A stretch of 40,161 nt of DNA from Armatimonadota bacterium (GTDB taxonomy: Bacteria > Armatimonadota > UBA5829): positions 1 to 40,161 of the forward strand of contig JARYME010000020.1 in the NCBI GenBank assembly GCA_029907315.1, given 5' to 3'. A model generated the notes under the pieces. The model was not told the origin of the DNA and ran no database searches. It saw only the letters and a list, made by a program, of their open reading frames with translations. Shown here one piece after another: positions 8,488 through 28,465 of this stretch (positions are counted from its first letter, which is position 1; the number at the start of each line of letters is the position of its first letter). Made by a program: the position numbers and the translations under genes.

Positions 8488-8546
8488 AAAAAGAAAAGCC
8501 CCAGCCCTGGCGGGCTGGGGAGGAGAAAAGAGGGTGGGAAGGTTTG
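8488..8546 (-). ncRNA. Candidate small RNA A: C/U-rich 5' part and intrinsic terminator
   Basis: On the minus strand TATAAC (8553-8558) would start a transcript near 8546; the -35 is poor. The first 26 bases are C/U-rich and include TTTTCTCCT, complementary to a typical Shine-Dalgarno region. Then comes a 9-bp hairpin (CCCCAGCCC / GGGCTGGGG, loop of 4 at 8508-8511) and CTTTTCTTTTT, a standard intrinsic terminator. No minus-strand gene lies upstream that would need terminating. The same layout recurs at 27512-27584. The hairpin is certain; that it ends a real RNA is inference. Confidence 0.3.
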
Positions 8547-8660
8547 CTACTTGTTATACGACTTTGCGCGGCAAAATGTTCCCGCGTTGCGGCAAAGAAT
8601 TGCTACAGAAATTTGCTCCAAGCACGATTATTTGGCTGGTGGCAAATATGGCGTGTGCCG

Positions 8661-14749: not shown

Positions 14750-16436
14750 CAAGACGCGACTGCGCAAATACGCAGGCATTGCGATCGTCTTGGTCATAAT
14801 ACTCGCAGCGGTCGGATTGGCAAAGAAAAACGGGGGCGCAAAGCCTATCATCCGCACGGATGTGGTGAAGCGCGGCACCGTAACGGTCAGCGTTTCGGCC
14901 AACGGCGTATTGCAACCTCTCACGACGGTGGAGGTCAGGTCGAATGTTGGAGGTCAGGTTGTCGAACTGACCATAGACGAAGGGGATTATGTGAAGGCCG
15001 GTCAACTCATAGCTCGTATTGATCCTTCGGACTCATTGACCCAGCTCCGACAAGCTCAGGCCGACCTCGCGAGCGCGCGGGCGCAAGTTGAACAAGCGAT
15101 GCAAGGATCGAGCATGCAACTGCTCCAAACGTCGGCGAGTATTGAGAGCGCTGAGCATGCTCTTGCCGCCAGCAAACAGCGCCTTGCTCAAGCAGAACAA
15201 GAGGCGAAGGCTCAGCCGAAGTTGACAGCCGAAGCCATCAGACAAGCGCAAAGCGCTCTTGAGGCAGCTGAAGCGAACTATGAGCAAGTGAAAAATGCAC
15301 TGGTTCCGCAAAAGATTGCTGCTGCAAAGGCCTCATACGATCAGGCACGTGCAGCTTTTGAGCAGGCTGAAAAGGAACTGAAACGTAAGAAAGCGTTACT
15401 CGAGAAAGGATTCGTTGCTCAGAGTCAGGTTGATGCCGCAGAGGAACAGTTTGCTGTCGCCAAGGCTCAGCTGGCCAGTGCTCAAAGCAAGCTCGATACT
15501 GTGAGGCAGGAGGCTGATCAAGATATCAAATCGGCAGAAGCCAAGGTTAGCCAAGCAAAAGCTGCCTATGAGGCTGCGCTGGCTAATCGAGTCCAGGATA
15601 CCATAAAGCAGCAGGAATTGGCTGCAGCCAGAGCTGCCGTCAAGCAAGCTCTCGCGACCTTAAAAGCGGCGAGAGCCAATGCATATCAGAACCAGATCAA
15701 GAAAGAGGAGATTCTCCGGGCTCAGGCGCAACTGGCAAGAGCTGAGGCTGCAGTGAAAAACGCGAAGACCCAACTCGGATACTGCACCATAACAGCGCCT
15801 CGCAGCGGAATCATTGTCAAGAAGTACGTCGAGAAGGGTTCGATCGTTACAGCGGGGCGTTCGGCGTTTGGAGGCGGAACGGGTGCGGGCATCACAATTG
15901 CAGAGATCGCCGACGTCAGTCGAATGCAGGTTCTTGTCGATGTTGACGAAACGGATATAGCTCGCATCCGTGTAGGTCAGGATGTGGATGTTACTTTCGA
16001 CGCTTTCCCCGGTGAGCACTTCAGGGGTAAGGTCATCAAGATTGCCCCGCAGGCTGTGGTCGAGCAAAACGTCACCACAATCCCTGTCACGGTGGAGCTT
16101 GAGCACGCCGACAGTAGGCTGAAGCCTGAGATGAACGCGACTTGTGAATTCATTATCATGCGCAAGCGAAACGTATTGTACGTGCCCAACGAAGCCGTCA
16201 AAGAGACCGACAGAGGGACTTTTGTAACAGTGCTCAAGAACGGCAAACAAGAAGAACGGCGAGTGCGTACTGGCGCGATGGGCGATGAGTACACAGAGAT
16301 CTTGAGCGGTCTCACCGAGGGCGAACGAATAGTGACGGCGGTAATCGAGCCGGTAACTCCTGCGACCGCCGTTCAGACGGGCGCCGGGCCTGGTGGAGGG
16401 CGTGGTATGCGCGGCGGTCCTCCCAGACCGTTCTAA
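14739..16436 (+). CDS. HlyD/MacA-family membrane-fusion adaptor with unusually long coiled-coil hairpin
   Basis: A 565-residue periplasmic adaptor linking the inner-membrane ABC transporter to the TolC channel. One N-terminal membrane anchor is at residues 12-28. The first half of the lipoyl-like domain ([20 protein letters not shown]) is near residue 66, and its second half ([19 protein letters not shown]) near residue 345. In between lie about 250 Ala/Gln/Glu/Lys-rich residues predicted as a coiled-coil hairpin, roughly twice that of E. coli MacA (371 residues in all). The beta-barrel and membrane-proximal domains follow, then a Gly-rich tail ([16 protein letters not shown]). The ATG at 14739 overlaps the previous gene. 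A longer hairpin suggests a wider periplasmic span, by inference. Confidence 0.93.
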
Positions 16437-25277: not shown

Positions 25278-26249
25278 TTAGGGGATTTCCGCTAGCTGTG
25301 CAAGAAGACGCATAGTTTGTATCTTGTAACGATGTGCCGACTGAGGATCTCTGTGTCGATAGTGCCTTATAACGATGTATTTCTGCACCTCATATGCCAA
25401 ATAGAATGCTCGTCTGATCAAGGCCTCCATCGACGTGTCTCGTTTTTGTCCATAGCCCTCCCAAAACGCAGGTTCTGAAATACCGCAGTAGTCTAGAACT
25501 GCGAACTCGATTTCCTTATCGCCCCAAAGCGCGCGGTCGAAGTCAAGAATCCCCGTGACCTTGTCGCCGTCAGCAACCAGAATGTTTTGCGCCCAGATAT
25601 CCATGTGCAGCAGACGTGATGTCACTGGCCGCTCGAAAACACTGCTGTACCGCTCAAGCAGACGTCGCATATGCCGTTCCTCGTCGGCATCGTAGTATCC
25701 CGCTTCCACCACGTCGTCGACAAGCTTGTTCCACATCACACGGAATGCGCTGACCCAATCGTTTTGGGGTTCCATGCAATGGTGTGCGCCCAGATATCCG
25801 TACTTGTCGGAAGTTATGCTGTGAATCTCGCGCAAATACGAGCCAACTTGATGAAGGATTCGATCCAGTTGCGGCCGGTTCACTCGGCACTGTGTTAAGG
25901 GTACTCCGGGAAGCTTCTCCATTATCAGGTAATCCCTGTCTATGTACTCGCGGGTGGCGTCGAACACAAATATCTCGGGAACGGGCACCGATGTTCGCCG
26001 CCTCACTATTTCGTGGATTTGAGGCTCCTGTGCCATCATCCCGCGTTCGTAAAAAACAAAACCTGCATCATCTGGTGGCGCGATTCTGAGCACGAGTGGG
26101 CGTTCGGCACCTTCGACAAAGTAGGTGGTGTTGAAATGCCCCGTAGGCACGCGCTCGAACCGAAGCTGTTCTGGGTGGGCACGAATGTGACGGGTTATAA
26201 GTTGCACGAGAATCTGGCGGTCGAAGTGGTTGTTCACAGTCATATTCAT
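25278..26249 (-). CDS. Aminoglycoside phosphotransferase-family (APH/choline kinase fold) kinase
   Basis: A 323-residue protein of the APH family, small-molecule kinases with the eukaryotic protein-kinase fold. The catalytic loop LLHMDIWAQNILV gives His215, Asp217 and Asn222 (HxDxxxxN). The metal-binding GILDFDRALWGD gives Asp236, in place of the protein-kinase DFG. The N-lobe has GHFNTTYFVEG as a nucleotide loop and LVLRIA with a basic residue in place of the usual Lys. Many APH-family genes have nothing to do with antibiotics, so resistance should not be assumed. The frame is closed by TAA six bases before ATG 26249, so this start is firm, yet it has no ribosome-binding site at normal distance. 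It is divergent from the DUF362 gene. Confidence 0.88.
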   Translation of the reverse strand: MNMTVNNHFDRQILVQLITRHIRAHPEQLRFERVPTGHFNTTYFVEGAERPLVLRIAPPDDAGFVFYERGMMAQEPQIHEIVRRRTSVPVPEIFVFDATREYIDRDYLIMEKLPGVPLTQCRVNRPQLDRILHQVGSYLREIHSITSDKYGYLGAHHCMEPQNDWVSAFRVMWNKLVDDVVEAGYYDADEERHMRRLLERYSSVFERPVTSRLLHMDIWAQNILVADGDKVTGILDFDRALWGDKEIEFAVLDYCGISEPAFWEGYGQKRDTSMEALIRRAFYLAYEVQKYIVIRHYRHRDPQSAHRYKIQTMRLLAQLAEIP

Positions 26250-26297
26250 TCGTTAAGCAGTGCTCGTTTCCTTGTCCTCCCTTACTGCGGACTGAGG

Positions 26298-26325
26298 TTG
26301 AAGCAGATGGGCTGCGTGGTATATC
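26298..26325 (+). promoter_or_regulatory. Predicted promoter giving a near-leaderless DUF362 transcript
   Basis: TTGAAG (26298-26303) and TATATC (26320-26325) are 16 bases apart. The expected start of transcription, 26332-26334, coincides with the ATG at 26334, which lacks a ribosome-binding site. Confidence 0.4.
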
Positions 26326-26333
26326 CTGTCCTT

Positions 26334-27512
26334 ATGTTGAGTGACCGCTCTGTCGTGGCAGTCGCGCGATGCCCCAGTTATGAGCCGGAGTCTGTTGCGG
26401 TTGCTGTGCGCACGGTTTTGGAACTCTCGGGTCTGCTCGATCGGCTCAAAGCGTGCCGGAAGATCCTTCTCAAACCCAATTTGCTTTCGCCGCGGATTCC
26501 GGAGGATGCCGTCACCACACATCCGAGCGTTGTGGAAGCGGTAGGTGTTACAGTTGCCCGGTTCTCCAGCGAAATTCTTATAGGCGACAGTCCCCCATTC
26601 GCTGGCGAGAACCCCAGCAGGTACGCGACACTGTTACAGAAAACCGGTATGTCGGATGTTGCGCATCGACTTGGTGCCAAGGTCGTGCGTTTCGAAGACC
26701 AGGTGGTACAAGTTGTCAACCCTGCGAGTAAGCTTTATCGAAGCTTCGAAGTTGGCTCTGTCGTCCGCGAAGTTGATGTCATCGTGAACATCGCCAAGCT
26801 CAAAAACCACGCCCTCACTCGAATCACTGGTGCCGTAAAAAACCTGTTCGGTTGCGTGCCGGGCATTAGGAAGGGCTTGTTTCACGTAAGGGCTGCAGAT
26901 GACAGAGAAGTCTTCGCTCAGATGCTTGTCGACTTGGCAGCTTCTATTGGGAACACCATTCACGTTATGGATGCGGTGATCGCCATGGAGGGCGAGGGTC
27001 CCAGTGCTGGTCAACCCCGACAAGTGGGCATTATCTTGGCTTCGGCGGATCCGATAGCGTTGGATGCGGTGGCGTCGACGATAGTGGGGTTTGAGCCAAT
27101 GTCGGTGGACACCACCAGGCTTGGTGATGCACAGGGGTTGGGATGCGGTCGGTTGGACTCAATAGAGGTGGTGGGTGCAAACATCGACGAGCTCCGCGTC
27201 AGCGGTTGGCTCCCCTCGTCGGGAACAAATGACTGGACTAGAATACCGGCCCCACTACGCAAGCTGCTGAAGCGTCAGCTTCTCGCGGTGCCTGTTTTTC
27301 GACGAGATCGCTGCATCGGTTGCGGCGACTGCGTGCAAATATGCGCTGCGAAGGCGCTGACCGTTGGCAGACCTCCTACTCTGGATGCGGCGAGGTGCAT
27401 CAGGTGCTATTGCTGCCATGAGATCTGCAGCAGCCGCGCCATCGACCTTCGGTACGGCACACTAGCCCGCTTGCTCGGAATTCACAGGTTGATGCTTCAC
27501 ACAGGGCAGTGA
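26334..27512 (+). CDS. DUF362 protein with C-terminal 2[4Fe-4S] ferredoxin domain
   Basis: A 392-residue cytosolic protein. Residues about 1-310 are a DUF362 domain: ILLKPNLLSP near residue 41, then THPSVVEAV, IVNIAKLKNHALTRITGAVK and GEGPSAGQPRQVGIILAS. The C-terminus is a bacterial ferredoxin with two sites, Cys327/330/333/337 in CIGCGDCVQIC and Cys355/358/361/365 in CIRCYCCHEIC, each able to hold a [4Fe-4S] cluster. The family's reaction is not established; electron transfer to an unknown partner is likely. The frame is open well upstream, but homology begins near ATG 26334, which has a promoter reading directly onto it. TTG 26337 is an alternative start. It is divergent from the APH-like gene. 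Confidence 0.9.
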   Translation: MLSDRSVVAVARCPSYEPESVAVAVRTVLELSGLLDRLKACRKILLKPNLLSPRIPEDAVTTHPSVVEAVGVTVARFSSEILIGDSPPFAGENPSRYATLLQKTGMSDVAHRLGAKVVRFEDQVVQVVNPASKLYRSFEVGSVVREVDVIVNIAKLKNHALTRITGAVKNLFGCVPGIRKGLFHVRAADDREVFAQMLVDLAASIGNTIHVMDAVIAMEGEGPSAGQPRQVGIILASADPIALDAVASTIVGFEPMSVDTTRLGDAQGLGCGRLDSIEVVGANIDELRVSGWLPSSGTNDWTRIPAPLRKLLKRQLLAVPVFRRDRCIGCGDCVQICAAKALTVGRPPTLDAARCIRCYCCHEICSSRAIDLRYGTLARLLGIHRLMLHTGQ

Positions 27513-27584
27513 GAAAGAAAAAGGGCTTGGCTTATCCTGCGTCCAGCCAAGCCCAGCAGAGGTAGTGAAAGGAGAAAAAGAAGC
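27512..27584 (-). ncRNA. Candidate small RNA B: same design as the element at 8488-8546
   Basis: On the minus strand TTGACA (27614-27619) and TACCAT (27591-27596), 17 bases apart, would start transcription near 27584. The first 30 bases are C/U-rich and contain TTTTTCTCCTTTC. A 10-bp perfect stem (GGGCTTGGCT / AGCCAAGCCC, 12-base loop) follows, then TTTTTCTTTCT, a normal intrinsic terminator. The 9-base TTTTCTCCT is shared with candidate A. There is no minus-strand gene upstream. The transcript would run antisense to the region just after the DUF362 stop codon. The hairpin and promoter-like boxes are seen; the RNA is inferred. Confidence 0.35.
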
Positions 27585-27859
27585 ACCGTAATGGTACTGG
27601 GTTTGCGACTGTTTGTCAATAGATAAATTAAAATTCGTGGCACCATATCTTTTTCCGCTTCCCACAAAATCAGACATCGCGCTTACGAGTAATCACACTA
27701 ACGATAGTTGTGACATTTTCTAAGGCCGGAGCACTTTGCCCGGCGCGTTTGCAGGCAGTTCGTCACTTCTAGTATAATAGAACGGTTCGGCGTGAACGTA
27801 GCAGTAAGAGCGCTTGTAGGCGCTGTTTAACGGCGGTTTTTGCACGTACGAGGAATACG
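27513..27859. other. Intergenic region between the DUF362 gene and recR
   Basis: This 347-base gap holds a hairpin at 27523-27554 with a minus-strand U-rich tail, a minus-strand promoter-like pair, a candidate small RNA (27512-27584), and the recR promoter at 27749-27778. The plus strand also has AGGAGAAAA at 27570, followed at 27591 by an 11-codon frame that I do not consider a gene. Confidence 0.6.
27749..27778 (+). promoter_or_regulatory. Predicted promoter of recR
   Basis: TTGCAG (27749-27754) and a perfect TATAAT (27773-27778) are 18 bases apart, giving a transcript start near 27785 and a leader of about 75 bases. A small hairpin AGCGC-TTGTAG-GCGCT follows in the leader. Confidence 0.55.
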
Positions 27860-28465
27860 ATGCAACTTGCAAAGCCCCTCGCCAGGCTCGTCGCGGAGCT
27901 TGAGAAGCTCCCGGGGGTAGGGCCGAAATCAGCCCAGAGACTCGCATTTCACATCCTTCGCGTTTCGGAAGACGAAGCACGTGCCCTGGCAGAGGCGATA
28001 CTTGACGTAAAGGAGCGAATCCGAACTTGCCCGGTCTGTTTCAACTTTACAGACCAGGAACTCTGCGAGATCTGCACGGATCCCAAACGCGATCGTTCGC
28101 TGTTGTGCGTGGTAGCTGAGCCCAGAGACGTTGTGGCTATGGAAAAAACCAACGAGTACAGGGGGCTCTACCACGTTCTGGGCGGAGTAATCTCGCCTAT
28201 GGACGGCATAGGTCCAGATGCTCTGAGAATTCGAGAACTTTTTGCTCGCTTGTCTGAGGGAACGGTTCGCGAGGTCATTCTGGCTACCAATCCGACTATT
28301 GAAGGCGATACAACAGCCATGTACATTGCGCGCGAGATACGCAGCGCGTTTGGCAACAAAGTGCGCGTTACCCGCATTGCGCATGGAATGCCTGTGGGAT
28401 CGGACATGGATTACGCAGACCAGGCTACGCTAATCCAGGCGCTGCAGTGGCGCCGGGAAATCTAA
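27860..28465 (+). CDS. recR: Recombination mediator protein RecR
   Basis: A 201-residue RecR of exactly the usual length. With RecO and RecF it loads RecA onto gapped single-stranded DNA for repair. Visible parts: an N-terminal helix-hairpin-helix (KLPGVGPKSAQRLAFHIL), a zinc finger formed by Cys57, Cys60, Cys69 and Cys72 (TCPVCFNF and CEIC), a Toprim domain from about residue 80 (LLCVVAEPRDVVAMEKTNEY; GVISPMDGIGPD; ATNPTIEGDTTAMYI), and the Walker B-like end (ARGMPVG-type, here AHGMPVGSDMDYAD). ATG 27860 has GAGG at 7 bases. In many bacteria recR follows dnaX and ybaB; neither is present, so the gene stands alone here. Confidence 0.97.
   Translation: MQLAKPLARLVAELEKLPGVGPKSAQRLAFHILRVSEDEARALAEAILDVKERIRTCPVCFNFTDQELCEICTDPKRDRSLLCVVAEPRDVVAMEKTNEYRGLYHVLGGVISPMDGIGPDALRIRELFARLSEGTVREVILATNPTIEGDTTAMYIAREIRSAFGNKVRVTRIAHGMPVGSDMDYADQATLIQALQWRREI

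Follow-up and report, generated by a model that had tools for sequence, protein, structure and literature searches.

A conserved minus-strand gene for a predicted C/U-rich small RNA in an order of Armatimonadota

Among the described systems closest to the locus studied here are the alphaproteobacterial RNAs AbcR1/2 (alpha-r15) and NfeR1, in which unpaired CUCCUCCC/UUCCCCUC anti-Shine–Dalgarno (anti-SD) motifs block the ribosome-binding sites of numerous mRNAs for transport and metabolism; these are short, regulated small RNAs (sRNAs) that include differently regulated copies (PMC8844928). In Listeria, the multicopy, envelope stress-induced sRNAs LhrC1-5 bind Hfq and pair with SD regions through CU-rich unpaired motifs (PMC4132741). 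For the Armatimonadota, a phylum with few cultured members, we found no description of regulatory small RNAs in the literature searched.

We analyzed an intergenic element on the minus strand of a 40,161-nt stretch of DNA from an Armatimonadota bacterium, hereafter the window. The element is flanked by a convergent gene for a DUF362 plus 4Fe-4S protein (26013-27512, plus strand; Pfam PF04015, E 4e-53) and by recR as its divergent upstream neighbor (27860-28465, plus strand; Pfam RecR_HhH and Toprim_4). An initial annotation had read from this region a minus-strand promoter-like pair, a C/U-rich segment, a perfect 10-bp hairpin with a T-rich tail, and no gene upstream, and we find all of these as described: recR lies on the plus strand, and a minus-strand gene is absent upstream. 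The −35 box TTGACA (27614-27619) and the −10 box TACCAT (27591-27596) are 17 nt apart, and the segment CTTCTTTTTCTCCTTTCACTACCT stands between TACCAT and the hairpin on the minus strand (27619-27514). With its start placed 5 to 7 nt past the −10 box, the predicted transcript, termed family A, would be about 70 nt long, and a held-out covariance-model match supports its extent (27514-27586, minus strand). Its single-stranded C/U-rich core CUUCUUUUUCUCCUUUC (27567-27583), which in the window reads CTTCTTTTTCTCCTTTC from 27583 to 27567, is complementary to AAAGGAG plus an A-rich spacer. Folding predictions give the 5′ 27 nt a mean unpaired probability of 0.95 and the CUCC motif a value of 1.00, and CUCCUUU, the complement of the SD sequence, lies within this predicted-unpaired core. 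Farther downstream, the arms GGGCTTGGCT and AGCCAAGCCC (27554-27545 with 27532-27523) form the perfect 10-bp stem of a terminator hairpin with a 12-nt loop (27523-27554), followed by the U-rich tail TTTTTCTTT (27514-27522), T-rich from 27522.

Within the window alone, promoter-like matches (11 versus 10.9 expected) and terminator-like matches (21 versus 20.3) occur at chance level, so a single-sequence view is no proof and the reality of the element rests on conservation. A covariance model of 71 positions (R1), built from six relatives with the window copy held out, matches that copy at 27517-27588 with 70.8 bits (E 1e-15). BLASTN of the region against 15 genomes of its family gave matches in seven, its own genome included, and every one of these loci carries the −35 box, the −10 box, the C/U core, the CTTGGCT hairpin, and the T-tract. 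Across the order, family A gives one strong match per genome (51-97 bits) in 11 of 19 genomes belonging to three families, with a strong match absent from the remaining eight; none occurs in the other nine genomes of the class or outside the order in a 251-genome Armatimonadota sample. When 84,980 species genomes were scanned by pattern, independently of the covariance-model search, the family A unit was recovered only in six metagenome-assembled genomes of this group (JAJFUS010000033, JAKPFN010000007, JAUSGG010000011, JAUSEB010000342, DJHI01000075 (UBA5829), and JACPPP010000301), and the unit is absent from the remaining matches of that scan. Five of the six records are labeled Armatimonadota or Armatimonadetes, and JAJFUS is labeled "bacterium."

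Over the 11 loci, mean pairwise identity is 0.34 in the upstream flank, 0.95 in the −35 box (TTGACA or TTGACT in all 11 orthologs), 0.49 in the spacer, and 0.57 in the −10 box, which in most orthologs is TATAAT or near it. Within the transcript, identity is 0.71 in the start region, 0.83 in the core, 0.60 in the remaining single strand, 0.97 in the 5′ arm of the stem, 0.63 in the loop, and 0.80 in the 3′ arm, before falling to 0.30 in the downstream flank. Promoter, core, and hairpin are therefore conserved, whereas the flanks stand at background identity (0.30-0.34), and the contrast between the core and these flanks, in a segment predicted to be unpaired, is that of an sRNA seed. A candidate palindrome for repressor binding that spans the −10 box (CTGGTA-N4-TACCAG in G012) was rejected, as its arms showed no covariation beyond permutation (2746 of 10,000).

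All 110 pair cells of the hairpin are standard across the 11 sequences. The changes that occur are one-sided, mostly to wobble pairs, with no two-sided compensatory change among these sequences, so the 5′ arm sequence itself seems constrained. This arm, GGGCUUGGCU, is also more conserved than its partner, which is unusual for a plain terminator, and it may serve a further function in pairing or binding.

The genes around the element change while the unit persists. At most family-f1 loci it is convergent to the DUF362 gene with variable 5′ neighbors, and in G012 the downstream gene differs as well; in family f2 it lies near an isocitrate/isopropylmalate dehydrogenase gene or response-regulator-like genes, and in family f3 near a xylose-isomerase-like gene. 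Because the neighbors differ between families, family A behaves as a free-standing gene. The element might instead be an intrinsic terminator that shields the 3′ end of the DUF362 gene from antisense transcription and yields no functional RNA, as its position directly past the DUF362 stop codon at most f1 loci would allow. We consider this very unlikely, since the −35 box and the C/U core are about as conserved as the hairpin and since other genes adjoin the element in G012, f2, and f3.

The T-tract and the −35/−10 boxes both indicate the minus-strand orientation, and the alternative raised in the initial annotation, a hairpin read from the plus strand, is not supported: the plus strand has no T-tract, and the conserved promoter reads the opposite way. 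These points also weigh against a plus-strand 5′ leader of the recR transcript, formed by the hairpin and then AAAGGAGAAAAAG. Although recR begins about 270 nt downstream on that strand and AGGAG resembles an SD sequence, no start codon of any gene stands at SD spacing and recR does not adjoin the element in most relatives, making a leader highly improbable. Coding capacity offers little more. A very short leaderless peptide (GTG CTT CTT TTT CTC ...) would have a hydrophobic stretch, VLLFLLSLPL, in G000 (the window's own genome), G002, and G013, but 1-nt indels in the T-run break the frame in G011 and G016, an in-frame stop follows 10 codons in G010, and the f3 frames differ. With no consistent reading frame across the family A loci, we regard such a peptide as scarcely credible. 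What recurs in 11 genomes is a −35 box, a −10 box, a hairpin, and a U-tract in the absence of a consistent ORF, the sequence pattern of an sRNA gene. Sequence and conservation together support the promoter, the predicted-unpaired C/U-rich 5′ segment, and the hairpin with its U-tract as one unit across the order, and the stand-alone minus-strand small-RNA gene first proposed from the window very probably exists.

The initial annotation had treated this element as the second copy of a family whose other member lies at 8488-8549 on the minus strand. The two elements do have a C/U-rich block, TTTTCTCCT, in common, but R1 misses the 8488 element, and the invariant segments and promoter types differ, so that the one-family interpretation does not hold. 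The 8488 element, which we term family B, comprises UAGCAAACCUUCCCACCCUCUUUUCUCC, a hairpin (8499-8520), and a U-tail, with invariant columns in relatives: 27 columns are invariant in 13 aligned copies from eight genomes, and the hairpin sequence varies. Of the 19 genomes of the order, 14 carry family B, each with one to four copies that are often arranged in tandem; elsewhere in the 251-genome phylum sample the family is absent. Its putative promoter, with sequence boxes GGAAC-N17-CGT (8558-8582, minus strand), is of the ECF-sigma type, whereas that of family A is of the housekeeping type (TTGACA/TATAAT). GGAAC-N17-CGTA boxes, which have the form of ECF-sigma promoters, also precede family B copies in the relatives whose upstream stretch was compared. 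By sequence, families A and B thus appear as separately conserved families that have a common design and the TTTTCTCCT block. The string GGAGAAAA was rejected as a family mark on its own: it occurs at 44 sites in the genome versus 38 in a reversed control, and of 30 sites inspected, the two elements of the window were the only ones next to such a hairpin.

Weaker R1 matches (33-35 bits) belong to a further family, C (CAUCUUCUUCUCCUUUCACCUCCUUUCC), which in G010 and G013 is followed in tandem, about 160 bp away, by a variant, D. Both carry UCACCUCCUUU or UCUCCUCCUUU behind ECF-type boxes, with UCACCUCCUUU in family C. UCACCUCCUUU is the sequence at the 16S rRNA 3′ end, and the strings UCACCUCCUUU and UCUCCUCCUUU copy or nearly copy this tail. 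Scanning for ECF-type boxes before TCTCCT revealed families E and F. Family E (GGAACAUCCCUUUCUCUCCUUUCUUUCCGACC plus a GC-rich hairpin) occurs in the window's own genome (G000:C125, about 15181-15235, minus strand) and in its two congeners, G001 and G002, each time behind the same ECF-type promoter. Family F (...CGCTTGCGACTCTTTTCTCCTTTCTGA...) is a longer conserved transcript-like element behind ECF-type boxes in f2 and f3; G013 has a related element. The scan also gave single cases; because nonrecurrent matches are near the control level, we count only recurrent sequences. The expectation of a lineage-wide set of such RNAs therefore stands insofar as families B to F populate the order, and fails insofar as family A itself is single-copy. 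Family A is one of a set of C/U-rich sRNAs in the order that are alike by design rather than by sequence family, the majority preceded by an ECF-type promoter. It is doubtful that families A to F make up a coordinated layer of several anti-SD sRNA families distinct in sequence, with most under one ECF-type sigma factor (GGAAC-N17-CGTA) and family C bearing the 16S-tail copy; if they do, envelope stress would lower the translation of whole mRNA classes via RNAs that mimic the ribosomal anti-SD sequence.

How might family A act? Hfq is encoded in 16 of the 19 genomes of the order, including that of the window (PF17209 above the cut-off). We propose that the housekeeping-type promoter would drive minus-strand transcription of the ~70-nt RNA, that the Hfq of the lineage would bind it through the U-rich tail and the U-rich single-stranded segment, and that the segment UUUUUCUCCUUUCACUACCU would pair with the SD sequence and A-rich spacer (AAAGGAGAAAA) of specific mRNAs, blocking 30S binding. 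Taken as a whole, a stand-alone minus-strand gene for a ~70-nt trans-acting, probably Hfq-assisted sRNA that pairs with SD regions is the likely explanation; the trans-acting SD-pairing mechanism, considered separately, is reasonably probable from composition and analogy.

We compared duplex energies at 305 start regions predicted in about 440 kb of the window's genome with those of dinucleotide shuffles. Shuffles paired with the start regions as well as the real segment did in 10 of 60 cases for family A, 46 of 60 for B, and 31 of 60 for E. Pairing by A is no better than that of shuffled C/U-rich sequences, and the case for anti-SD action is therefore one of composition and analogy rather than of a significant test; the SD-complementary single-stranded segment of the initial annotation stands, its anti-SD function being putative. 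The RNA might instead act as a sponge or bind a protein, for example titrating Hfq or some other protein, without pairing with mRNA. Such a role would accommodate this result, together with the C/U-rich unstructured segment and the unusually conserved 5′ arm of the hairpin. The strongly conserved 17-nt core exceeds the needs of composition-driven protein binding and contains the SD complement CUCCUUU, and on balance we think a sponge unlikely.

Returning to SD pairing by family A, the core is far more conserved than a generic C/U tract would require, from which we infer specific targets. Target searches identified no conserved target. Signal-like genes pair better with A (Mann–Whitney p 0.006), but a closely similar bias appears with shuffles and with the 16S tail. 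All four start-region matches outside sRNA genes in a 20-mer scan, which are nearly fully complementary, encode signal-peptide-like proteins, as do two of seven start-region matches in a 16-mer scan; mRNAs of exported proteins may be among the targets, although this is only a hint. The 16-mer scan also showed close complementarity between the A core and a start region in G017 (TTAGTGAAAGGGGAAATACATG), whose gene was judged csrA-like from visual inspection of its N-terminus. From this complementarity, that gene is a possible target that would link the sRNA to CsrA control.

At the gathering threshold, Rfam 15 finds only a tRNA in the window and leaves family A unmatched. The nearest model, suhB/MmgR (RF00519), aligns weakly on the minus strand at chance level (17.9 bits versus a gathering score of 41). 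For the 8488 element, the nearest is NsiR1 (RF02399), at 22.3 bits versus 39, with mainly the terminator hairpin aligning. NsiR1 copies are arranged in tandem, and the two are alike in being short RNAs with tandem copies and an unpaired 5′ part. Family A resembles AbcR1/2 and NfeR1 as a short RNA with an unpaired C/U motif against the SD sequence, but NfeR1 is 115 nt long, AbcR1/2 have more than one hairpin, and both belong to another phylum, whereas family A has ~70 nt, one hairpin, and another motif. With LhrC1-5 and other UCCC-motif sRNAs (RsaE and FsrA), it has in common a CU-rich unpaired SD-complementary motif; the LhrC RNAs are 111 to 114 nt long, use UCCC, and are under two-component control, whereas family A is shorter, carries CUCCUUU, and showed no sequence relation to them. 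Family A, a single-copy sRNA whose seed is strongly conserved, and its sister families with ECF-type promoters offer a concrete entry point to riboregulation in Armatimonadota and suggest that one lineage can give rise to several C/U-rich anti-SD sRNA families that differ in sequence. Family A is a new RNA family within a known kind, probably that of the C/U-rich anti-SD sRNAs.
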